Below, in pieces: positions 46,623-60,522 of a DNA stretch of 64,000 nt (positions within the stretch are counted from its first letter, which is position 1; every line of letters begins with the position of its first letter). Below the pieces are notes generated by a model, which was not told the origin of the DNA, did no database searches, and was given only the letters and a program-made list of their open reading frames with translations. The position numbers and the translations under genes are program-made. The stretch comes from Stictocephala bisonia. Its lineage: Eukaryota; Arthropoda; Insecta; Hemiptera; Membracidae. The stretch is from assembly GCA_035578905.1 (NCBI GenBank), contig JAQJVL010000738.1, positions 341,302 to 405,301 of the forward strand. The letters run 5' to 3'.

Positions 46623-48059
46623 TGTAACAGGTCCACCAAATTGATAGGCAAATTAATTAATTTAGATAAATAATAAATTATTATACAGAAGAAGAGGAAT
46701 TTATTTAATCAAAATAGATGGAGAAGTTTCAAATCATATTAGAGAATTATTGTGAGGAAAATAACCGTGGGACAGACGAGAGGCTCCAGCAATAAATCAC
46801 TGTAAACAGACCCTTTGTTCAACACAGGATGGGTGGGTCGAATTCCAAGAATTATCAAAACACATGGGAATATCTGAGACTAAACAGTCAGCAAGTTACG
46901 ACGTAGGAGCGTGAGACAAGCAGCGACTTGTCGGTTGGTTATTTTCCATTAAATCCCCTCCAGGTCACAAGTGACTGATGTGCAGTAGAGGAACTCAGAT
47001 GACGAGTTCTGAAACGAACCAATCAGAACGGGACATATCATTCCAAATTTGCCCGTAGGCCGCAGCAGCTGTCAAAACAGCCACATCGTGATATACCCAG
47101 AAGGGTCATAGTCGCGTACCCAAAAGAAAAAAGGCGGGAAACCGACTTCAACGGTTAAGAAACGTTCCTCACCCCAGTCCATCTCTGACGCCTAACTTAA
47201 CATGACCTACCGAACGAGTGACTTGTACACACCTCGTGGTATAATAACCGGTTTCAAAGTTTTAACGATGGTTTAAAGACAAAGGGCAAAGTGATTATTG
47301 TTACACTAACATTGTGCGTGTGAATTCAACATGTAATCAGTCTAAATTAAAATACGTGCTCGTGAAAATGTTGTGAAATCATCTATAACGAACGCTGAAC
47401 AGATAAGTTTAAATTAAGATTTATCATTAAGATTGTAATTGCAAATTTATCTTCACTAGATAGAATCATGATTTGATTTTAAAAAATATAATATAAGATC
47501 TTTTGTAAAGATTTTGAGTAAACTCAGTTTTAATTGAAAATATTCAATTAAAGAATGTAATAAAAAATAATTTTGTAAAAGAACTTTTGTTTTATTGCAT
47601 CATACAGTTTTCACCGAATTACCCTGAGAACGACCCTGAGAACAAAAATTAAGAGTTATCATGTTATAAAATAAAATAAATCAAATTTCTGCTACTTTTG
47701 TTTTTAAGAATCAAATATTGAATCAATGTGATACAATAACCTCCTCAAGGGAGCAAGTCACAAATATTTAATAAATAATTTGAAACAAAAAAAAAGAAAT
47801 AAATTAAAGAATTCTGATTTATTGAATATCATTATTTTAATTTAATCAATGGATTAAATTAAAATAAATAATGTAAATAATGTAACGAAAGTCAACGTTA
47901 CAGATTGACGCGACAGCGTGAGGCTTTGTTGTTGCAGATTTAATTAATTGATATAAGTGGTTGAAAATTTGCTTAATTATTACAGATTTAATAAGTTAAA
48001 AAGGCAAAACGTTACAGAATGGCGCTAGAACGTGAGGCGTCAAAAGTTTCAATGTTACA
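46623..48059 (+). repeat. 5' LTR (1,437 bp)
   Basis: It begins TGTAACAGG and ends AATGTTACA. A TATA-like box TATAATAA is at 47240. An AT-rich hairpin (ATTTTAATTTAATC and complement) is near 47835-47868. Two degenerate copies of the LTR-end-plus-primer-site junction lie in its last 170 bp. Confidence 0.92.
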
Positions 48060-48062
48060 GAA

Positions 48063-48081
48063 TGGCGCCCAACGTGGGGCT
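48063..48081 (+). other. Primer-binding site, tRNA-Lys(CTT)
   Basis: TGGCGCCCAACGTGGGGCT is complementary over 19 bases to the conserved 3' end of eukaryotic tRNA-Lys(CTT). It starts 3 bases after the LTR. Confidence 0.85.
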
Positions 48082-48382
48082 GTATGATGCAAATTTTAGG
48101 TTTTGATATTATTTAAAAAATACATGAAAATAATTGGTTAATAATTTATTAAAAAATCACAGCTTATGTGAAATTTCATGTCAAGTTGATTATAAAAAAA
48201 AAAAAAAAAATTTTTGTGATAGGCTGTATATCTTAGTAGTGAATTAAATATAGCTGAAATTATTTAAAATATAAGATAAAAGAAGCCTAGGAAAATATAT
48301 TTTAATTTCATAAAAATTTAATGAACAAAACAAAAAGATTCATAGGACATATTTTTCAATCATTAAATTTTACTAAAAAATC

Positions 48383-50113
48383 ATGGCTGATGTAGAAGTA
48401 GTCCAAAACTCGGAGCTTGACTCCGAGGACTCTGATACCTCTCTAAGCGTAATTAGGGAATCAAATTTGAATAAAAATAAAAAAACTGAAAACCATGATC
48501 TAGGAATAGACAGGGAAGATACTTTGTCTAGCATTATGGACATGTTAATAAAAATAAACACCAAACATGATAATCTAGAAACTCAACTGAACAAAATGAA
48601 CACTAAATATGATAATTTAGTAAAGATAAATAAGGAAACTAATACTAAATTAGAGGAAAATAATAAGAGACTAGATGCAGTAGAGGCTAAACTAGAAACT
48701 AAATTTGATGAAATCAGCCTCAGACTAGACCAAAATGAAGTTAAGATTAATGAAATAAACATTAACCTAGAAACTAAACTTAATGAAGTAAACAATGAGT
48801 TTAGAAGAGATATAAATCAACTTGAAAATAAAGTAGATAGACAGCTAGAACAAATTAAAACAAATTGCACTGAAGAAATTAAAGTTCAAGAAAACAAAAT
48901 CAGGGATGAAATGAACGATAGGGACAAAGAACAAATAGTAAAAATAAATGAGGTAGAAAATAAATTGAGTGAGATAAATAAAACACTGCTAGACAAGTAT
49001 ATTGAGCTAAATATTAAACTAACTAATGTGATTGTTGAAGTAGACAATCAAATGATCAAAGTAAATGACAAGATAGAAGAACAGATAGGTTATCTAAACA
49101 CTATCATAGACAATAAAATAGAAAGAGCTATCACCCTAAATAACACTAATCTAGAGGGTAAAATAAATGAGTTAAAAGATCATGTAGATAAAGAAATAAA
49201 AATAATCAGTGACCAAACTAAGAGAACTCAAATAAATAGAGACAGATCTGTTGTAAGAGACAGTAGTAATAATACACACATAGGTGAGGTAGACATATCA
49301 TTAAATAAAATCACTATTGATGATAATAAAAATAAGACTACACAAAACACTACAAATAATAAAACAATCTCTAGCACTAGTGCGGAATTGTATTTAGTAG
49401 ATTTCTACCCAGACTCAAACAAATGTCACCCAATGACATTTATTAAATTTGCTAAGAAGTTTGTAGATCTATCAGAGGATCAATGGGATTGTCAAATTCT
49501 ATTTCTTATGAAACACTTGAAAGGGGAGGCTAGTATATGGATTAGAAATAGACTTGACAAGTGGAACAACTTTCTTGAATTCGAAAGCGAATTTAGAAAT
49601 AAATATTGGGGAATAGACAAACAGAAAGAGTTTGAAAACAAATTAATGGGGGGTGGTACCTATGATGCTAACAGGGATGACATGGTAAATTACATTATGG
49701 AATACTACAACATATCATGTTTTCTAGATCATAAGCTGAGCATGACCACTTTTCTTAGTTTCATATCACGACACCTACCAATAGGGATTAGTGCATCAGT
49801 AGCGACAGCTAGTAACATACAAAACGGAGATGACCTAGAGACCTATTTGAAACAACTAAATCATGTAGGTAAAAGTCAGTTTGATTCCAATAAAAGACCA
49901 CAAAATAGATCATATGAAAACAATAATAAACAAGTAGTAGTCAATAATAACCATAGTGAGGTTAGAGAAAACCAAGAGGTTCCTAGACGTAGAGACAATG
50001 ACAGTAATAGAAGAGGGGGTTACAGAGGTAATTTTAGAGGGAATTACAGAGGCTCAAATAGAGGACAAAGCAGTAATTATCATCATAGCAGAGAAGATGT
50101 CAGAAATGAATGA
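48383..50113 (+). CDS. gag with coiled coil and RGG tail (gypsy element 2)
   Basis: This intact 576-residue frame starts at the first ATG of a long open frame about 300 bases past the primer site. Residues 45-285 are almost continuous heptads rich in Lys, Glu, Asn, Ile and Leu, a predicted long coiled coil. Residues 335-500 form the capsid-type gag domain (FIKFAKKF, LKGEASIWIRN, FESEFRNKYW). Residues 535-562 are an RGG/RG box (GGYRGNFRGNYRGSNRG), and there is no CCHC knuckle. The frame ends in TGA at 50111, and the same frame continues open into pol. The coiled coil suggests multimer assembly; the RGG tail probably binds RNA. Confidence 0.9.
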   Translation: MADVEVVQNSELDSEDSDTSLSVIRESNLNKNKKTENHDLGIDREDTLSSIMDMLIKINTKHDNLETQLNKMNTKYDNLVKINKETNTKLEENNKRLDAVEAKLETKFDEISLRLDQNEVKINEININLETKLNEVNNEFRRDINQLENKVDRQLEQIKTNCTEEIKVQENKIRDEMNDRDKEQIVKINEVENKLSEINKTLLDKYIELNIKLTNVIVEVDNQMIKVNDKIEEQIGYLNTIIDNKIERAITLNNTNLEGKINELKDHVDKEIKIISDQTKRTQINRDRSVVRDSSNNTHIGEVDISLNKITIDDNKNKTTQNTTNNKTISSTSAELYLVDFYPDSNKCHPMTFIKFAKKFVDLSEDQWDCQILFLMKHLKGEASIWIRNRLDKWNNFLEFESEFRNKYWGIDKQKEFENKLMGGGTYDANRDDMVNYIMEYYNISCFLDHKLSMTTFLSFISRHLPIGISASVATASNIQNGDDLETYLKQLNHVGKSQFDSNKRPQNRSYENNNKQVVVNNNHSEVRENQEVPRRRDNDSNRRGGYRGNFRGNYRGSNRGQSSNYHHSREDVRNE

Positions 50114-50119
50114 CAACTA
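50111..50119 (+). promoter_or_regulatory. Probable UGA readthrough site between gag and pol
   Basis: TGA CAA CTA fits the stop-CARYYA context known from tobacco mosaic virus-type readthrough. The frame is open on both sides: gag upstream, and 24 codons up to the pol ATG at 50186 downstream. Confidence 0.65.
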
Positions 50120-50185
50120 CAGCAAGGCGCAAACACAGGTAGGTCCAGAGAAAGTAAACAGTATCAATGTAACCTAGAACAAATA

Positions 50186-53100
50186 ATGGAGAAACCAATA
50201 TATTTAGATCATGAGCTAGCAGGTGATAGTCAATTAAGTAGGTTCGCTCAAAATATATTAAATAAGACTCCAGTATTTGTATTAAACAAAAGAAGAGTAG
50301 GACTGTGTGTAAGTGGCCAAAATATTCCTGAATTAAAAAATGAGTTTAATTTAAATAAGGATAACCTAAATGAAAAACTTCTCATTATGATAGGGACTAA
50401 TGACTTTTTACAAGAAATCCCAACCAAGTATATCATTAATGAATATAAAAGCATGATAGAAGAATTAGTTAGTTGGAAAAAAGAATTAATTCTGTTAACT
50501 TTACCACCAATACCAAGACTTGCTAAAAGTGATGCTTTCCATTTTCATAAACTAAATGTGTTTAATGATTTTATAACCTCTTTGAATAATGATAAAAACG
50601 TTAGGGTAATAAACATATCTAATGTTTTCATGGACACAGAATTTAAAAATAGATGCAACCTAGACTTGTTTGAAAAAGAGATTTTCTCAAGGGGCAGTAA
50701 AAGACCTGACCTTGTTCATTTAAATAAAAAGGGATTTTGCATTATGAAGGAAATAATAAATGACTTTGTGAAACAAATAAAATCAGAGCAAGAAAATAAA
50801 ATCCAAGTAAATACTAATGAAATATTTTTACATGGGGATTTAAATAGTGAACTAACCAATGAAAATAATTTTCATGAAATGCCTATTAAAGGGTTAACTC
50901 ACTTTCTTCCTGAAATAAATGTAAAAATAGGCCATAAAGAATACAGATGCATAGTAGACTCAGGATCAGAAGGGACAATAATTAGTCAGGACATTTATGA
51001 AGATATAAAAAATAATGTAGACTATCAAATACCCCAATTACCAGTTAGCAATTTACAAATAATAGGAGTAACTGGAATTAGATCAAAGAAAATAAATTAT
51101 CAAGTACAAATAGACTTTGAGATAAATAGTCAAATAGTTCCAATAACATGTCTAGTAGTGAAAGAAATTCAAGCAGGAATCATTTTAGGGTGTGACTGTT
51201 TCATTGAAAAGTTGGCTAAAATAGATTTTGAAAGAAAGTGCTTAGAACTTAAAATAGATGACAAGAAACTAGTAGTACCATTTGTACCAAGAAACAAATT
51301 AAACATGGTAAATGGACTAAGAATAATACAAGTAGGACATATTACTTGTTATGAAAGTGAAAGAAAATTAAATAACATAACCAATGAATTAATAAGTATT
51401 ATAAATAATGACCAGCTTGATAAAATATTTAAGTCAACAAATAATGAACAGATACACAATAACATGACAACAAATAGGAACATAATAATAAATAAAATAA
51501 ACATAAATAATCAAAGTGAAGTAAAAGAAATAGTAACGTCAGATATAATGAATAATGAAAACAACTTTGAAAAACAAATAAATACAAAAATACAAGAAAT
51601 AAGTAGTGAAACTAAATTTCAAAATAAAGAACAGGTTGAAATGTTAAAAAATGTTTTAATAAAAAATAAAGTAGTATTCTCAGATAATCCTGGTTGTATA
51701 AAAAACTATGTCGCTAAACTTAATGTTAAATGTGAAGTGCCGTTTATAGGAAAACCATATCCGGTACCTTTTAGTAAAAGAAAAGCAGTTGAAGCAGAAC
51801 TAGAAAGAATGCTAAATTTAAATGTAATAGAGCCATCAAGCAGTCCTTATTCAAATCCCTTGGTATGTGTTATAAAAAAAGACTTAACAATAAGAGCTTG
51901 TTTAGATAGCCGAAAACTAAATCAATACTTAATAGCAGACAGACAAAGTACCGAACTAACTGAAGAGATATTTCAAAAATTTATAGGAGCAAAGTATTTT
52001 ACAGTATTAGATTTATCACAAGGATTCTGGCAAGTGAAACTTGATCAAGAATCAAGAAAATATGTTGCTTTCACTTTTGGAGGAAAGAATTATCAGTTTA
52101 AAAGAGTTCCATTTGGACTTAAGGTAAGTACTGCACTCTTCACCAAGGCATTACAAAAAGTCTTAGGTAATGAATTTTCTGAATTTTTAACCCAATATGT
52201 GGATGATTTATTAATCACAAGTAATGACTCATTTGAACAACATATAGAACACATAGACAGAGTACTAACAAAGTTAAGAGAAGGAGGTGTTACCATTAAA
52301 CTTAAAAAATCAGAATTCCTAAAAAAGGAAGTTAAATTCTTAGGATTCATTCTAAGTGAAGAGGGAATAAGAATGGATGAAGAAAAAATGGAGAAAATAA
52401 GAAATTTTAGAACTCCAAGGGGATTGAAAGAATTGCAAAGTTTTCTGGGGCTATGTAACTATTATAGACAATTTCAAAAGGGTTATGCAAATCTAACTAG
52501 TAAATTTAGTCATATCCTTAGTTCTAAAAAAGCTTGGAAATGGGGTCCTAAAGAAAATGAGACTTTCAATGAAATAAAAAATGCATTTTTAAAGTCAGTA
52601 CTTTTACATCATCCTAATTGGGAGAAACCTTTTTACATAAACACAGATGCATCTGACATTTGTGTAGCAGCTGTCTTGTATCAGTTAAATGACAATGGTA
52701 ACGAAGAGGTAATTTATTTTGGAAGTAGGTCCTTGCTTGAGATAGAGAAATCTTACAGTGTAACAGAAAAGGAATTGTTAGCAATAGTGTTTGCATGTAA
52801 AAAGTTTAGGAGTTACTTGATAGGCCACTTTGAAATAATAATTAGATCTGATCATAGAGCTTTGTCATTTCTAAAGAGCTGTAAATTAACTCATGGTCGC
52901 TTACTAAGATGGAGTCTAGTGTTACAAGAATATAATTTGACTATTCAATATGTTAAAGGAAAAGAAAATATACCAGCAGACATACTTTCTAGAACAGACA
53001 ACAATGATTATCAAGAGAATAAAGATAAATATAACTTAAAAGTTTTAACAAATAAATTAAATGTAGATGTACCAGATAGAGTATTTAAAAACATGTTTAA

Positions 53101-53209
53101 AAATTTAGAGAAACACCAACAAGAAGATACATTTTATGGTAGGATATTAAAGAAACTTGAAGACAGCCAGGAAATAAAAATAAAAAAACAACTACTTAAC
53201 CCACAATAA
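50186..53209 (+). CDS. pol: SGNH hydrolase, protease, RT, RNase H (gypsy element 2)
   Basis: This 1,007-residue frame is in phase with gag. Residues 5-195 match an SGNH/GDSL hydrolase: block I GDS (S15), block II Gly (G44), block III GTND (N72) and block V DLVH (D175, H178). Residues 240-345 are a retropepsin with DSGSEGT (D258). RT spans about 470-760 with YVDDLL (D673, D674). RNase H spans about 815-945 (D821, then an EKELLAIVFA helix and SDHRAL), followed by ENIPADILSR. The frame ends before the integrase at a probable indel. The ATG at 50186 is only the first Met after the UGA; translation most likely enters from gag by readthrough. SGNH enzymes hydrolyse esters; the substrate here is unknown. 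Confidence 0.88.
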   Translation: MEKPIYLDHELAGDSQLSRFAQNILNKTPVFVLNKRRVGLCVSGQNIPELKNEFNLNKDNLNEKLLIMIGTNDFLQEIPTKYIINEYKSMIEELVSWKKELILLTLPPIPRLAKSDAFHFHKLNVFNDFITSLNNDKNVRVINISNVFMDTEFKNRCNLDLFEKEIFSRGSKRPDLVHLNKKGFCIMKEIINDFVKQIKSEQENKIQVNTNEIFLHGDLNSELTNENNFHEMPIKGLTHFLPEINVKIGHKEYRCIVDSGSEGTIISQDIYEDIKNNVDYQIPQLPVSNLQIIGVTGIRSKKINYQVQIDFEINSQIVPITCLVVKEIQAGIILGCDCFIEKLAKIDFERKCLELKIDDKKLVVPFVPRNKLNMVNGLRIIQVGHITCYESERKLNNITNELISIINNDQLDKIFKSTNNEQIHNNMTTNRNIIINKININNQSEVKEIVTSDIMNNENNFEKQINTKIQEISSETKFQNKEQVEMLKNVLIKNKVVFSDNPGCIKNYVAKLNVKCEVPFIGKPYPVPFSKRKAVEAELERMLNLNVIEPSSSPYSNPLVCVIKKDLTIRACLDSRKLNQYLIADRQSTELTEEIFQKFIGAKYFTVLDLSQGFWQVKLDQESRKYVAFTFGGKNYQFKRVPFGLKVSTALFTKALQKVLGNEFSEFLTQYVDDLLITSNDSFEQHIEHIDRVLTKLREGGVTIKLKKSEFLKKEVKFLGFILSEEGIRMDEEKMEKIRNFRTPRGLKELQSFLGLCNYYRQFQKGYANLTSKFSHILSSKKAWKWGPKENETFNEIKNAFLKSVLLHHPNWEKPFYINTDASDICVAAVLYQLNDNGNEEVIYFGSRSLLEIEKSYSVTEKELLAIVFACKKFRSYLIGHFEIIIRSDHRALSFLKSCKLTHGRLLRWSLVLQEYNLTIQYVKGKENIPADILSRTDNNDYQENKDKYNLKVLTNKLNVDVPDRVFKNMFKNLEKHQQEDTFYGRILKKLEDSQEIKIKKQLLNPQ

Positions 53210-54303
53210 CATACTTTTTTCAGAAATGTTCATTAGCGGGGGGTGAATATAGAATATGTATCCCAAACAAGCTGTTAAAAGATTTAATAGAAAAAACTCA
53301 TCTTAAATATGGACATTTAGGAGGGCATAAAATCTATACTATACTAAAGGAACATTGCATTTTTCAAAGATGGAGAAAACAATAAAGAAGCAACTACAAA
53401 GCTGTGACATATGTCAGAAAGCAAAGCCATCTAATAAAAAAACAGATAGGAAGTTTAAAGCCAATTATTCCTAATAAGGTCAAAGAATTAATTTCAGTAG
53501 ATTTAGTAGGAGAATTACCAACCAGTAGAGGGGGGGTAAAATATATTTTTGTTATAGTAGATGTATTCTCAAAATTTGTTAAACTATATCCAATAAAGAA
53601 GGCCAACACGAGGACACTATTAAATAAAATCATTAATGAATATATACCATTAGTAGGTAATATAGAATCAATTCTCAGTGACCACGGTACACAATTTACA
53701 AGCACACTCTGGTACAATACTCTACACAACAAAAACATTAAAACTATTCACAGCTCTGTATATCATCCACAGTCTAATCCAACTGAACGTGTAAATAGGG
53801 AAATAGGAAAGATATTGCGCATCTATTGTAATGAAAAACATACAGCTTGGGCAAACTTAATTGACTTTATAGAGCATTGTTTAAATCATTCTGTTCACGA
53901 TATAACAGAAGAAATACCATTTGAAATAATGTTTGGAAAAAAGTATGATAATATAATAAACAAGATAATCCAGTTTCCAGGAAATCACACATTTGATCAT
54001 GCACATAAAACTGTTCTGGTAAGAAACAAAATAAAAAATAAGGCACTCAAAAGGAAACAAAGACATGATAATAAAATAAAACCAATAACATATAAAGTAA
54101 ATGATCTTGTATTAGTAAAAACACATTTTCATTCAGATTTATTAGAGAAAAAGATAAAAAAGTTTTTTCTGTTATACAAGGGACCCTATAAAGTGACAGC
54201 CATTAAAATGGAAAATGCTTATGTAGTCAATGAAATAGACACAGGAGACATAATAGGAACATATAATGTAACACAACTTAAACAATATACACAAAAAGAA
54301 TAA
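53210..54303 (+). pseudogene. Integrase (gypsy element 2), frameshifted N-terminus
   Basis: The zinc domain is spread over two frames at 53225-53450 (HLKYGHLGGHKIY, then CDICQKAKPSN). The frame changes at A-rich stretches near 53378-53384 and 53441-53447, besides the one near 53205-53230. From 53404 a 299-residue frame gives the catalytic core with D33, D93 and E128 (DD34E) and the YKGPYKV (GPY/F) motif near residue 258. The integrase core itself is uninterrupted. Whether the three upstream breaks are real decay or assembly error cannot be told here. Confidence 0.85.
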
Positions 54304-55850
54304 TTAAACAACTTTTAATAAATATTCAACTCTAAAACAATTTAAAATATAAATTACTATTTAAATGAAAGAAAATTAGGAACAGCAAAATAAAAAATAA
54401 TGAATGACTAAAATAATATGATATTAATGACAACATATGAAATGTAGAGATATTGGATATATAGAAGTGTTTTGTATAAAATTGTGTTCTCAAGGTAAAA
54501 GAAACTTGATTATGTCCATATTTTAAATACAATAATGATAAAATTTGACATATATATTAGATGAAAATGTACGAAAATGTTCTAAAATATATTATTGTCA
54601 TAAACCCTGTATGTTCATATGAAAAATGATTCAAAGAATGATGATGATTAAGTTCACTTAAAATAAATAGGTGAAACATCTTGTAATATGTTGTGTAGTG
54701 ACTTGTTAATGTTGAAACAATGTCTGTATAACCTGTCAATGTTTATTCAAATAATAAGATGATATGACTCAAGGATATGTAACATCATGATAAAGTGAAT
54801 AATGTCTAATACAAGACTTTGTTTTTGTAACTCTTGTATGTAAATATTGAACATGATTTTTAAAGATACACGAGGCATGTAGTCTTATGAAACCAAGATG
54901 ATATAATGTCTATGTAAGAACAAAGATAAGGAGATGTAATTTATTATAAGGTTATATTACCATAATGTATCTATGATAATGTAATATGACTCAATGACAT
55001 ACTTTGAACATACTATTGTATGTAATCTGACAAACTTAAATGATTTATAATCATTTAAAGAATTTATAGAAGGTAAGCAGCCAGTGGTTAATAGTGATAC
55101 GATTCGATTCTAATTAAACCTTGCCACCTCCAAATTCTAAATTCTTTAACGCCAAGTACTCTGTTAACCACACAATGGCACAAGATATCAGCTTCGGGTG
55201 TTGGTCAGCCCTGACAACAGAGTCTAAAGACAAAAGCTTAAAGTGTTCTGCAGCATGGCAAGTCCCCATTTACAAAAGTCATGTTGCAGACACCAATAGA
55301 TTAGTAATTTAGAATATAACATTGATGAGGGTAATGGAAATAGTATAGATATGTAATTGTAATTTTTCTTAGTAAACTTTTATAATGTCATTGATGCAAA
55401 GTAACAGAAACTACCAATTGAAATAATTAAACTACAATTAAAGTAATAATCAGTTATACTAATATCAATAATAAATAACAAGAAATAATTATTGTAAAAC
55501 TTTTTGAATATGATGATTGTAATTAACTATAAATATATTAATTTAAAACATGCAATAATAACACCATTAATAAAACAACAAAAATAAATTAAGGTCAACA
55601 CATAATAATATACAACTTGAACATTAAAATAATCATAAATGCCAATCAACGTTGATGGACAAGGAGGAGCCAGGTTTTCCATTCATAAATGGACAAAAGC
55701 GGTGCACAAAGATCAGTAGCCTCAAGATGGTTCAACGGGCTGCTCGGACCTTCCCACCAGCAAGTCGTATGGATCAACCCTCTGCACAAATTCCTGGCAT
55801 CAAAACTTTCGGAAGTCGTCAAACAATAATCTAATCTACTAACCCAGCAA
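54304..55850 (+). other. Element 2 non-coding region, part 1
   Basis: This is AT-rich with no envelope-like frame, signal peptide or membrane segment. A 63-codon frame at 55121 resembles nothing. A GC-richer stretch (55640-55850) leads into the motif cluster. Confidence 0.6.
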
Positions 55851-55856
55851 CAGATG

Positions 55857-56713
55857 CGTGCAGTGACATCAGACCCCACTGGCGTAACAACAACTCCATG
55901 GTACGTGCAGTGACATGAGGCCCCACTGACGTAGCCACAACTCCATCATCAATCCAGAGGCACGTGCAGTGACATCGGACCCCACTGGCGTAGCAACTAC
56001 AACTCTTTTGATCCACCAGGATGTTATGGATTAAACATGAGCGGAACTCGTCGAACCATAAATGACTCTAGTTTAACAACTAATTCTTTTTCCGGAAGTA
56101 CGTGCAGTGACATCAGGCCCCACTGACGTAGCTACAACTCCATCATCAATCCAGAGGCACGTGCAGTGACATCAGGCCCCACTGGCGTAGCAACTACAAC
56201 TCCTTTGATGCAACAGGATGTCGTGGAACAACCATGCTCGGAGCAAGTCGAACTTTAATCAAACTACTGACGCAGCAACAATTATGATAGACGCCGTCGG
56301 ACCATAATTTAACTCCACTGGTGTAGCCACAACTCCATTACTATTCCAAGGTACGTGCAGTGACATGAGACCCCACTGACGTAGCAGCAGTTTCTTCAAT
56401 CTTCAAGAACCCTAATCCATACTTATGATCCAGGACACTATGGACTAACCATGATTGGAATTGATCGAACCATAAGTGATTCTAGTTTAACAGCTAATTC
56501 TTTCCAAAAGTACGTGCAGTGACATCGGACCCCACTGGCGTAACTTCGACTTCCCTCAATATTCCAAAATGGCACACTCTTGAATACCAAGGCGCTGTGA
56601 ATCAACAACTCCAGAAGCGCGTGCAGTGACATCAGGCCCCCACTGGGCGCAGCTACAAACCCATCACCAGACCAAAGTACGTGCAGTGACATCGGACCCC
56701 ACTGGCGGAGCAA
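55857..56713 (+). repeat. Nine copies of an approximately 34-bp motif
   Basis: CGTGCAGTGACATC followed by RGRCCCCACTGGCGTAGC starts at 55857, 55904, 55963, 56101, 56160, 56354, 56513, 56620 and 56680. A degenerate tenth lies near 56285. Spacings of 47-60 bases alternate with 107-194 bases. The block with copies 2-3 is itself duplicated as copies 4-5. The motif is far more conserved than the spacers. Confidence 0.9.
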
Positions 56714-59046
56714 CAATTTGGCAATATATTTCAAACTAATAAATAAAAAAAAATAAAATATTATGCAAATAGGTATGGAATAAATAATAGCAATAAATAA
56801 ATAACATATAACAAATAAATAACAAAACGTTACATATTCAATAATATGTGAGATATAAATATTAATTCAAATAATAATTTTATTACTGAAAAGAATTACA
56901 ATAATTTTTATAATAAATTATAAAGTAACAAATAATAATAATAACTTGCATCAATGACAAAGAATTATGTAATGCATCTGTTGATTAGTAAACAATGTAT
57001 AATACAAACTATTCTTGTATTAACATAGGATTTGATAACTTATTGTTGTTAATCAATACTTGTATATAATTGGATGATATGTGTACTATGTATTTCTGAT
57101 ACACAAGGTATCGTTTTGTTTGATAACTTTGATCCAGGACTGATGAATTTCATCCCAAATAAATAATAAGTATAATCTGATGATTTATTATGTAAATATA
57201 GTAATGTTTATGTGATTCAGTAATAGAGAATAATTCAAGCCATTCTTATATAAATGTAAGAGTTGATGAGCTATTGAGTGAAATTACTAATTATTATGTA
57301 AATAAATTGATAATTAATGATGTACAATTTTAAGAATTAATCATTTGTTGAACGATAAATAATATGTAAAAAGTTTTAAGGGATCTTTGATTTATTGATC
57401 AAGGATAAATGTTAAGATTTAACTAGAGATTGATGATATGTGTGATAATATGATGACATGTTAATAATTGAAAATGTTTGGAAAATTGTTTGTAATTAAT
57501 GGCTGACTTGATAACGTAAAGATTTGTTTTGGAAGTAATGACTTATATGAGAATGTTGTGGATTGTATAGTGATTAAGAATTTATTTAAAAAATTAAAGA
57601 AGGATAAAAGATTGAAAAAGATATAGGAATTTAAAGACGGATTAAGAATTGATAACGGATACTAGTATTTAAAGAAGGGTAATGGATTGATAATAGGTTA
57701 CGGAATTTAAAAACGGATAAAGGAATGAAACAGGATTTTAGCAATGAAAGAAGGGTTAATGGAATGAAAAAAGATAAAGGAACTTAAAAATGGGAAATGG
57801 ATTGATTACAGGTTACAGAATTAAAAGAAGGGTTTAAAGGGTTGATAACGGGATTAAGTATCTAAAAGATGGTTTAATGGTTTGATAACAAATACTGGCA
57901 TTTAAAGACGGATTAAAGGATTGATGTCGAAGTTAAGAATTTAAAAATGGTTAAAGGAGTTGAGAATATATTTGAAATATATGACAGGGTATTGAAAAAT
58001 GATTGACAAATTAATATAGGATGTTGAAGAAATACTTAAATAAATAAATGATGATTCATTTATGAATTGATGAAATATATAACATGTTATGGTAATGAAT
58101 AAGTCATATAATTTTAATGATGATGTTGAAATATAATAACTGTAAGTAAGTTGATAATTAAATTAATTTTGAAGTGTAACCTAATAATTGATAACTTATA
58201 TTTTGTTGATTTTGATATATGACTTATGTATTTGGTGGATGATTTCATATTGTGAAATGGAGTCATTGATTTAAATAAGAACTTGTATAATTTCTGATGA
58301 TGTATTGATCTTAGATTATAATTTTTGAATTTGTACTAGCAAATGAAATAATTTGCCAGTGGAAAACTAATCATTTACTAACTAAGAGGAAATCATAATT
58401 TAATGATTAATTAATTTTGATAAATACTTGTATAGAACTTAAAGATGTATTAATTGTTGATGTATGAATTTCAGTTATGTAAATGTAATAATTTTGTTTG
58501 ATAACTTTTAATACAAGACTGATGGATTTTTGATTGACAACCTGTAATAATTAAAAATACATTAACTATTTTATGAACAATTAATGTACAATGAAATGAG
58601 TTGTTAAACTTTTGACTTATAAATTATAGAATTGTTAGTTAACAATTTTGATTTATTGGATCATTGTTTTAATAAATGTAACTTTGAATTATTGATTTTT
58701 ATTGATAACTATGTAGGATGTGATGAATTTTTTGAATTTTTTAATCATAAGTGACTAATTTGTATTGATAATTTTATGCTTTATTGAATTGTAATTGATT
58801 GATTTGTATTAATGATTTAATGGACTCATTTTGATAAATATGGATTCTTAAATGTTGATAAGGAGATAATGATGTATATGCCATAGAATATGTAATCTGA
58901 TATTGAATTAATAGAATAGTTAATAGACTTAATTTACTAGATATAATTAAATATTGTAAAATGAAACTTATCTGAGAAACAAACGACAATTTGGCGAATC
59001 GTGTTTAAAATCAAGATTTTTTGACTCGCGTTTACTCACACATCGC
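56714..59046 (+). other. Element 2 non-coding region, part 2, with degenerate purine-rich repeat
   Basis: This is very AT-rich. At about 57600-57970 a degenerate unit of 35-40 bp (GAATTTAAAGACGGATTAAG, then GATTGATAACGG) is repeated roughly ten times. Elsewhere TTGATAACT-like strings recur. No ORF is credible. Confidence 0.6.
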
Positions 59047-59065
59047 AAAAAATCGGGGGAGGTAC
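59047..59065 (+). other. Polypurine tract (gypsy element 2)
   Basis: AAAAAATCGGGGGAGG followed by TAC directly precedes the TGTAACAGG start of the 3' LTR. Confidence 0.7.
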
Positions 59066-60522
59066 TGTAACAGGTCCACCAAATTGATAGGCAAAGTAAT
59101 TTATTTAGATATATAATAAATTATTATACGAAGAAGAAGAATTTTATTTAATCAAAATAGGATGGAGAAGTTTCAAATCATATAGAGAATTATTGTGAGG
59201 AAAATAACCGTGGGACAGACGAGAGCTCCAGCAATAAATCACTGTAAACAGACCCTTTGTTCAACACAAGATGGGTGGGTCGAATTCCAAGAATTATCAG
59301 AAACACATGGGAATATCTGAGACTAAACAGTCAGCAAGTTACGACGTAGGAGCGTGAGACAAGCAGCGACTTGTCGGTTGGTTTATGTTCCATTAAATCC
59401 CCTCCAGGTCACAAGTGACTGATGTGCAGTAGAGGAACTCAGATCACGAGTTCTGAAACGAACCAATCAGAACGGGACATATCATTCCAAATTTGCCCGT
59501 AGGCCGCAGCAGCTGTCAAAACAGCCACGTCGTGATATACCCAGAAGGGTCATAGTCGCGTACCCAAAAGAAAAAAGGCGGGAAACCGACTTCAACGGTT
59601 AAGAAACGTTCCTCACCCCAGTCCATCTCTGACGCCTAACTTAACATGACCTAACCGAACGAGTGACTTGTACACACCTCGTGGTATAAATAACCGGTTT
59701 CAAATTTTTAACGATGGTTTAAAGACAAAGGGCAAAGTGATTATTGTTACACTAACATTGTGCGTGTGAATTCAACATGTGAATCAGTCTAAATTAAAAT
59801 ACGTGCTCGTGAAAATGTTGTGAAATCATCTATAACGAACGCTGGAACAGATAAGTTTAAATTAAGATTTATCATTAAGATTGTAATTGCAAATTTAATC
59901 TTCACTAGATAGAATCATGATTTGATTTTAAAAAATATAATATAAGATCTTTTGTAAAGATTTTGAGTAAACTCAGTTTTAATTGAAAATATTCAATTAA
60001 AGAATGTAATAAAAAATAATTTTGTAAAAGAACTTTTGTTTTATTGCATCATAACAGTTTTCACCGAATTACCCTGAGAACGACCCTGAGAACAAAAATT
60101 AAGAGTTATCATGTTATAAAATAAAATAAATCAAATTTCTGCTACTTTTGTTTTTTAAGAATCAAATATGAATCAATGTGATACATTTACCTCTCTCATC
60201 AAATTTAGGTAGCAAGTCACAAATATTTAATAAATAATTGAAACTCAAAAAAAAAAGAAATAAATTAAAGAATTCTGATTTATTGAATATCATTATTTTA
60301 ATTTAATCAATGGATTAAATTAAAATAAATAATGTAAATAATGTAACGAAAGTCAACGTTACAGATTGACGCGACAGCGTGAGGCTTTGTTGTTGCAGAT
60401 TTAATTAATTGATATAAGTGGGTTGAAAATTTGCTTAATTATTACAGATTTAATAAGTTAAAAAGGCAAAACGTTACAGAATGGCGCTAGAACGTGAGGC
60501 GTCAAAAAGTTTCAATGTTACA
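59066..60522 (+). repeat. 3' LTR (1,457 bp)
   Basis: It is collinear with the 5' LTR. Differences are mostly single-base gaps, and the one larger block difference is near 60185-60215. The TATA box here is TATAAATAA at 59685-59693. Confidence 0.92.

Follow-up and report, generated by a model that had tools for sequence, protein, structure and literature searches.

The window analysed here is a stretch of 64,000 nucleotides from the genome of the membracid Stictocephala bisonia, and it contains an LTR retrotransposon of 13.9 kb, measured from LTR to LTR, on the forward strand. The 5' LTR (46623-48059) starts with TGTAACA and finishes with TGTTACA, and forms a direct repeat with the 3' LTR (59066-60522). 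The two LTRs were 97.1% identical over 1462 columns of a BLAST alignment, and a 4-bp target duplication (ATCT) flanks both ends of the element. No age is claimed from the LTRs, since the mismatch count varied with the aligner (12 or 35) and a rate would have to be assumed. A primer-binding-site-like stretch, TGGCGCCCAACGTGGGGC, whose match to a tRNA is putative, lies directly 3' of the 5' LTR (48063-48080), and a polypurine tract is found immediately 5' of the 3' LTR. A TTACAGA-TGRCGC-ACGTGRGGC-like motif occurs three times between 47895 and 48080, twice near the LTR end and once as the primer-binding-site-like stretch.

The gag ORF (48377-50113, forward strand) has its first ATG at 48383 and closes with TGA. 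Its N-terminal part gave an Apolipoprotein-like Pfam match below the cut-off, matches to capsid families were weak and also below the cut-off, and its C-terminal end is RG-rich; inspection of the ORF revealed no CCHC knuckle. The pol ORF of the window copy (50114-53209, forward strand) encodes in one frame an OSK-type SGNH domain (about 50186-50785), an aspartic protease (PR, 50876-51265; RVP, E 1.6e-5; DSG at 50957), a reverse transcriptase (RT, 51641-52450; RVT_1, E 7.2e-28; YVDD at 52196) and an RNase H (RH, 52541-52933; RT_RNaseH, E 1e-33; RT_RNaseH_2, E 1.4e-31). The integrase core with its GPY motif (IN, 53386-54303, forward strand; rve, E 6.1e-13; GPY at 54181) sits, in this copy, in a different frame. 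An open frame of 1395-1398 residues was found in 23 of the 150 sibling matches listed, and 22 of these 23 were free of stops within the match. The following 4.8 kb (54304-59065) contain no long ORF on the forward strand, the longest stop-to-stop frame being one of 142 residues on the reverse strand; 47-bp and 77-bp repeats are present in this long 3' non-coding part, at 55823-56719 and 57594-57925. On the basis of its TG..CA LTR ends, its target duplication and the order PR-RT-RH-IN, with the integrase here out of frame, the sequence identifies the element as a Ty3/gypsy (Metaviridae) retrotransposon. One LTR pair showed 99.5% identity by BLAST, which points to young copies of a multi-copy retrotransposon.

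The gag and pol ORFs share one frame and are separated by the TGA codon, so that translation of pol is expected to depend on read-through of this stop, without a frameshift. The stop lies in the context TGA-CAA-CTA (50111-50119, forward strand), that is, a stop followed by CARYYA, the leaky context of the tobacco mosaic virus type. This hexanucleotide is best known following UAG, not UGA, and read-through is typically 5-10%. TGA followed by CAAYTA was found in 76 of the 77 sibling copies examined (at the expected place in 71, by pattern in four and by the printed context in one, L018; L010 was unconfirmed), and the chance of CARYYA at a single site is about 0.002. When 100 bases were folded, no strong RNA structure was predicted near the stop. 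We infer from the shared frame and this context that the gag UGA would be read through and that the domain at the head of pol would be synthesized at the Pol level.

The sequence-only reading had proposed an SGNH/GDSL hydrolase domain at this position, and Pfam bore it out. OSK (PF17182), the top-scoring family, gave 59.9 bits (cut-off 27) over ORF residues 26-216, and Lipase_GDSL_2 gave 38.8 bits (cut-off 32.9) over the same region; with both scores above the cut-offs, the match is beyond chance. Counted from the ATG at 50186, the catalytic residues S15, G44, N72, D175 and H178 stand where they had been placed. Structure prediction, which had been suggested as a check, returned an SGNH alpha/beta fold (pLDDT 94, pTM 0.91), and the lists obtained by fold comparison of this model were headed by OSK and GDSL/SGNH proteins. 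Drosophila OSK was the best PDB match both by sequence and by fold, Oskar leading the fold list of the predicted model by more than 5 Z units. A PDB sequence search with the window domain, at E up to 10, retrieved three chains, two of Oskar and one of a bacterial GDSL protein, and the ZfL2-1 esterase was absent from these matches; a beetle relative matched Oskar with an E value of 2.8e-6 and ZfL2-1 with 0.15. With an HMM made from Oskars only, the window domain scored 53.9 bits, as compared to at most 31.2 bits for bacteria. By all these scores the domain is of the OSK type, as in the germ-plasm protein Oskar, and not of the CR1/L2-LINE type. Since the full active site is kept, it is a predicted esterase, catalysis being predicted from the residues and the modelled fold.

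In the genome assembly (1.68 Gb, 11105 contigs) at least 150 sibling matches were scored. We examined 77 copies, corresponding to rows 1-60 and 62-69 of these matches and nine further loci. Loss of Ser and His in most siblings had been named beforehand as the outcome that would count against the domain. Both residues, and with them Gly, Asn and Asp, were present in all 77 copies, which are 74-100% identical to the window, are mostly the best ranked of the at least 150 and hence the best conserved, and share ancestry. Over the 195 residues of the domain, 88 positions were invariant and 107 variable, and an in-frame stop was found inside the domain in five of the 77. The dN/dS ratio, calculated as a ratio of means over non-independent pairs with dS of 0.02-0.1, was 0.188 for the SGNH domain (482 pairs), as compared to 0.125 for PR (186 pairs) and 0.069 for RT (88 pairs). 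The SGNH domain is under purifying selection, and its constraint is weaker than that on PR and RT. The surroundings of some copies were unusual. At L021/L022 (contig C228), repeats of a 46-bp unit occur on both sides of the copy, forming a long array at one flank and a short run at the opposite one; the copy thus seemingly lies inside a satellite. Three domain copies at C1089:221027-232161 have the same orientation and a spacing of 5.2 kb, shorter than the full element, and may represent a shorter relative repeated in tandem. C1016:732-1436 and C4474:40338-41042 have identical scores and stops and may be two haplotype copies of one locus.

A protein search with the window pol ORF and the domain region, at E up to 1e-3, returned two proteins. 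The first, P0001, is a pol protein of 1318 residues with the same domain order as the window element, and provides the fusion in another element that the sequence-only reading had suggested looking for; its identity to the window is 47% in SGNH, 50% in PR, 73% in RT, 75% in RH and 67% in IN. The second, P0002, is annotated as an 'OSK domain-containing protein' of the leafhopper Graphocephala. With the P0002 domain as query, 12 proteins were retrieved at E up to 10, P0002 included, and an alignment-based search gave 62 proteins, all with PF17182; as the query alignment (A2) contains the fly Oskar sequence, its Oskar matches, including the Oskars among the 62, are circular. It had been asked whether the element captured the domain or gained it convergently: homology to an insect protein family along the whole length of the domain speaks for capture and rules out a convergent SGNH set.

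The family splits sharply into 32 catalytic-type and 38 Oskar-type proteins, a split that describes the set and is no independent test, because the two groups were sorted by eye and by tree, partly on the same motifs. GDS is present in all 32 catalytic-type proteins, GTN in 31 and the D-x-x-H end in 28; this end is missing from P0028, P0058, P0060 and P0071, whose gene models are partial or odd, and P0060 is without the Asn block as well. None of the 38 Oskar-type proteins has GDS or GTN: Asn is replaced in all 38, and Ser in every one of the 31 where this block is present. The catalytic type is represented in leafhoppers, planthoppers, psyllids, scale insects, thrips, beetles and a termite, among them Graphocephala P0002, Macrosteles LOC128997898 and proteins of Frankliniella, Agrilus, fireflies and Cryptotermes. 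The host family covers four insect orders (Hemiptera, thrips, beetles and a termite); the order was confirmed for Graphocephala, Macrosteles, Cuerna, Homalodisca, Cryptotermes, Frankliniella and Ignelater, and for the remaining proteins it is the one to which we take them to belong. In four psyllid and scale-insect proteins (P0009, P0013, P0034 and P0036), long inserts of up to several hundred residues, real or mis-predicted, precede the catalytic Asp-His. These host genes share 27-41% identity with the element domains, and the same catalytic residues and spacing, whereas several of them have long N-terminal parts and none is fused to PR-RT-IN.

Because only three of five Oskars gave a match to the Pfam LOTUS model, and this below the cut-off, we built our own profile from nine Oskars (six of them from named flies), which detected six of seven held-out Oskars and can therefore miss some. 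With this profile LOTUS was found in none of 22 catalytic proteins, nor in the host gene described below, at E below 9, and the window gag gave no match at the same sensitivity.

Trees were built from insect, element and bacterial rows. Near-identical or isoform rows (P0010-P0012, P0014, P0015, P0037 and P0038), partial or odd gene models (P0058, P0060 and P0071, all without the Asp-His end), 26 of the 38 Oskar-type rows and 72 of the 77 element copies were dropped. The 41 insect and element rows formed one clade with respect to 11 bacterial rows (100/99), six of the latter being the best PF17182 matches among 398 genomes. P0001 and five of the 77 copies, which together make up the six element rows, formed one clade, on a long stem, in three trees, with support of 94/61 in the first, 100/95 in another and 100/99 when Oskars and bacteria were removed; one tree carried a long-branch warning for Oskar and bacteria. 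AU tests of four placements of the element clade gave p values of 0.12-0.52 (0.40 in a later analysis). They rejected none of its groupings with leafhopper, hemipteran, beetle or Oskar rows, and the grouping of Oskar with bacteria was not rejected either, so that the trees single out neither a donor nor a direction. The HMM of nine Oskars, taken as LOTUS-bearing (LOTUS being unconfirmed in P0061), ranked all 29 catalytic and element rows (38.2-85.1 bits) above all 11 bacterial rows. In the opposite direction, a profile of the element domains, which ranks similarity and is not a tree, gave its top scores in five of seven leafhopper-group genes (159.7-168.6 bits), followed by beetle-group, thrips and planthopper rows; the beetle group takes in P0017 and P0030, and the leafhopper group P0004, for which the organism is not stated.

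The scans for a close prokaryote relative gave weak matches: one prokaryote scan returned seven weak loci with 23-27% identity, and among 398 genomes of Bacillota (the phylum of an Apilactobacillus genome) PF17182 was matched in 31 at E up to 1e-3 and in five above the cut-off, the best match (31.4 bits) covering part of the model. The five genomes reached via the weak prokaryote loci contained no PF17182 match, and one IMG/VR scan for close viral relatives gave 25 pattern matches, none of which was confirmed.

The S. bisonia genome also contains a single host locus (L009:526-2136, C588:73736-74365) that encodes a catalytic OSK-family domain and in which no LOTUS was detected. It is 61% identical to P0002, as compared to 31-42% for the element copies, and clusters with six genes, five of them from leafhoppers (100/99). 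With the element-domain profile it scored 131.3 bits, below most beetle rows. The window gag, PR-RT-RH, IN and LTR and the P0001 pol found no match in the 19.8 kb around this gene. A recent capture from this gene of the element's own host was rejected, as the clade joining it to the element gave an AU p value of 0.008.

We compared these data with published systems. The OSK domain of Oskar (PF17182; PDB 5a4a, 5cd9) belongs to an insect germ-plasm determinant that also contains LOTUS and has lost the triad, and Oskar is defined by a LOTUS domain followed by OSK, homologues needing both (PMC8662646). In the window element, on the contrary, no LOTUS precedes the domain, the triad is intact and the domain is part of a mobile element. 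The same survey found oskar nearly wholly absent from Hemiptera; since it demanded LOTUS plus OSK, LOTUS-less genes would be passed over (PMC8662646). An earlier study reports that BLAST with Osk gave no significant insect SGNH relatives (PMC3084197), and another placed OSK nested among bacterial GDSL lipases, found the most similar sequences to be bacterial and named a transposable element only as a possible cause of integration (PMC7250577). Oskar has been treated as a chimera that received one domain by transfer, forerunners without the chimeric structure having been seen for another case (PMC13389597), and as a non-catalytic SGNH protein, in a paper that also describes the esterase of LINE ORF1p (PMC3905857); in vitro RNA binding was ascribed to OSK and not to LOTUS (PMC12247748). 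Bdelloid rotifer Vesta LTR retrotransposons carry a catalytic GDSL enzyme, so that the presence of such an enzyme in an LTR retrotransposon is not entirely new, but in Vesta it is a separate ORF3 downstream of pol, whereas in the window it is the first pol domain, in frame and before the protease (PMC5408684); the word 'Oskar' is absent from that paper. ZfL2-1 (PDB 4c1b), the ORF1p esterase of a CR1/L2-type LINE, likewise has an SGNH fold upstream of RT (PMC3905857), but in a non-LTR element and in ORF1, not in pol. Host-like enzymes in mobile elements are also exemplified by AlkB in orchid Ty3/gypsy elements, a different enzyme in a separate ORF in plants (PMC9289625), and by the SGNH hydrolase of a platyfish Helitron, a DNA transposon of fish (PMC4021074). 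A literature search that covered few subscription journals found no description of an OSK-type domain in a retrotransposon or of a LOTUS-less catalytic OSK family.

The data above establish the position and the frame of the domain, its catalytic set in every examined copy, the purifying selection on it and its OSK-type ancestry. The most likely reading, which we consider probable, is that a Ty3/gypsy lineage captured an insect OSK-family esterase gene and makes the enzyme at the Gag-Pol level. The donor would be a member of the LOTUS-less, catalytically intact gene family extant in Hemiptera, thrips, beetles and a termite. The esterase would be made as the first Pol domain whenever ribosomes read through the UGA closing gag, and a minor share of Gag would continue into a Gag-esterase-PR-RT-RH-IN protein, which would be incorporated into the particle and processed by the protease. 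Within the particle the enzyme may take acyl or acetyl groups off a membrane lipid, a glycan or an RNA-bound protein and, by analogy with what was proposed for CR1/L2 LINE and rotifer ORF3 esterases, may serve assembly, uncoating or transport. Oskar's OSK would be another branch of the family, which lost the active site and binds RNA. Oskar is likely to have inherited OSK as an enzyme and then lost the activity, and the element keeps the complete active site.

The element might instead have kept the fold and not the enzyme, with OSK-like RNA binding aiding genome packaging and the active site retained for ligand binding. The nearest fold is indeed the RNA-binding OSK, the domain has a net positive charge (pI 8.7-9.5 in three element rows) and gag has no CCHC knuckle; nevertheless, the triad is exactly what Oskars lost and what elements and catalytic genes kept, and the RG-rich end of gag could already bind RNA, so that we consider this explanation unlikely. 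A flow in the reverse direction, in which a retroelement lineage brought SGNH/OSK into insects, and catalytic host genes and Oskar OSK are its domesticated descendants, appears improbable as well. It would agree with the presence of the domain in two distinct element families, and the element clade was nearest the bacterial side in the first tree, without support (47/48), but the host family, spread over four orders, shows more diversity than the single clade of element rows, and no further element parts were found in the 19.8 kb around the host gene. That the domain is an ordinary GDSL passenger akin to the esterases of CR1/L2 LINEs or rotifer LTR elements, with no special link to Oskar, is very unlikely: SGNH enzymes did enter retroelements several times (PMC3905857, PMC5408684), but the PDB search found Oskar chains and not ZfL2-1, Oskar heads the fold list by its wide Z margin, and the Oskar-only profile places every insect and element row above every bacterial one.

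The probable capture of an insect esterase gene by the Ty3/gypsy lineage bears on the history of oskar, which directs the building of germ plasm in flies. The origin of oskar has so far been attributed to a GDSL domain transferred from bacteria (PMC3084197, PMC7250577). As a long shot, OSK might not have reached a LOTUS gene directly from a bacterium, and could be the inactive offshoot of an ancient family of active insect esterases moving between host genes and retrotransposons, one such retroelement having carried the domain to the birthplace of oskar. Beyond what was first read from the sequence, the domain is an active-site-bearing relative of Oskar. The nearest relatives of OSK found here are active-looking insect genes, several of them in Hemiptera, and a multi-copy retrotransposon, and a germline-linked domain is thus seen carried by a mobile element. 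The short list of accessory enzymes of LTR elements would gain one at the Gag-Pol level, and the step from an enzyme to an RNA-binding scaffold would become testable with living intermediates.
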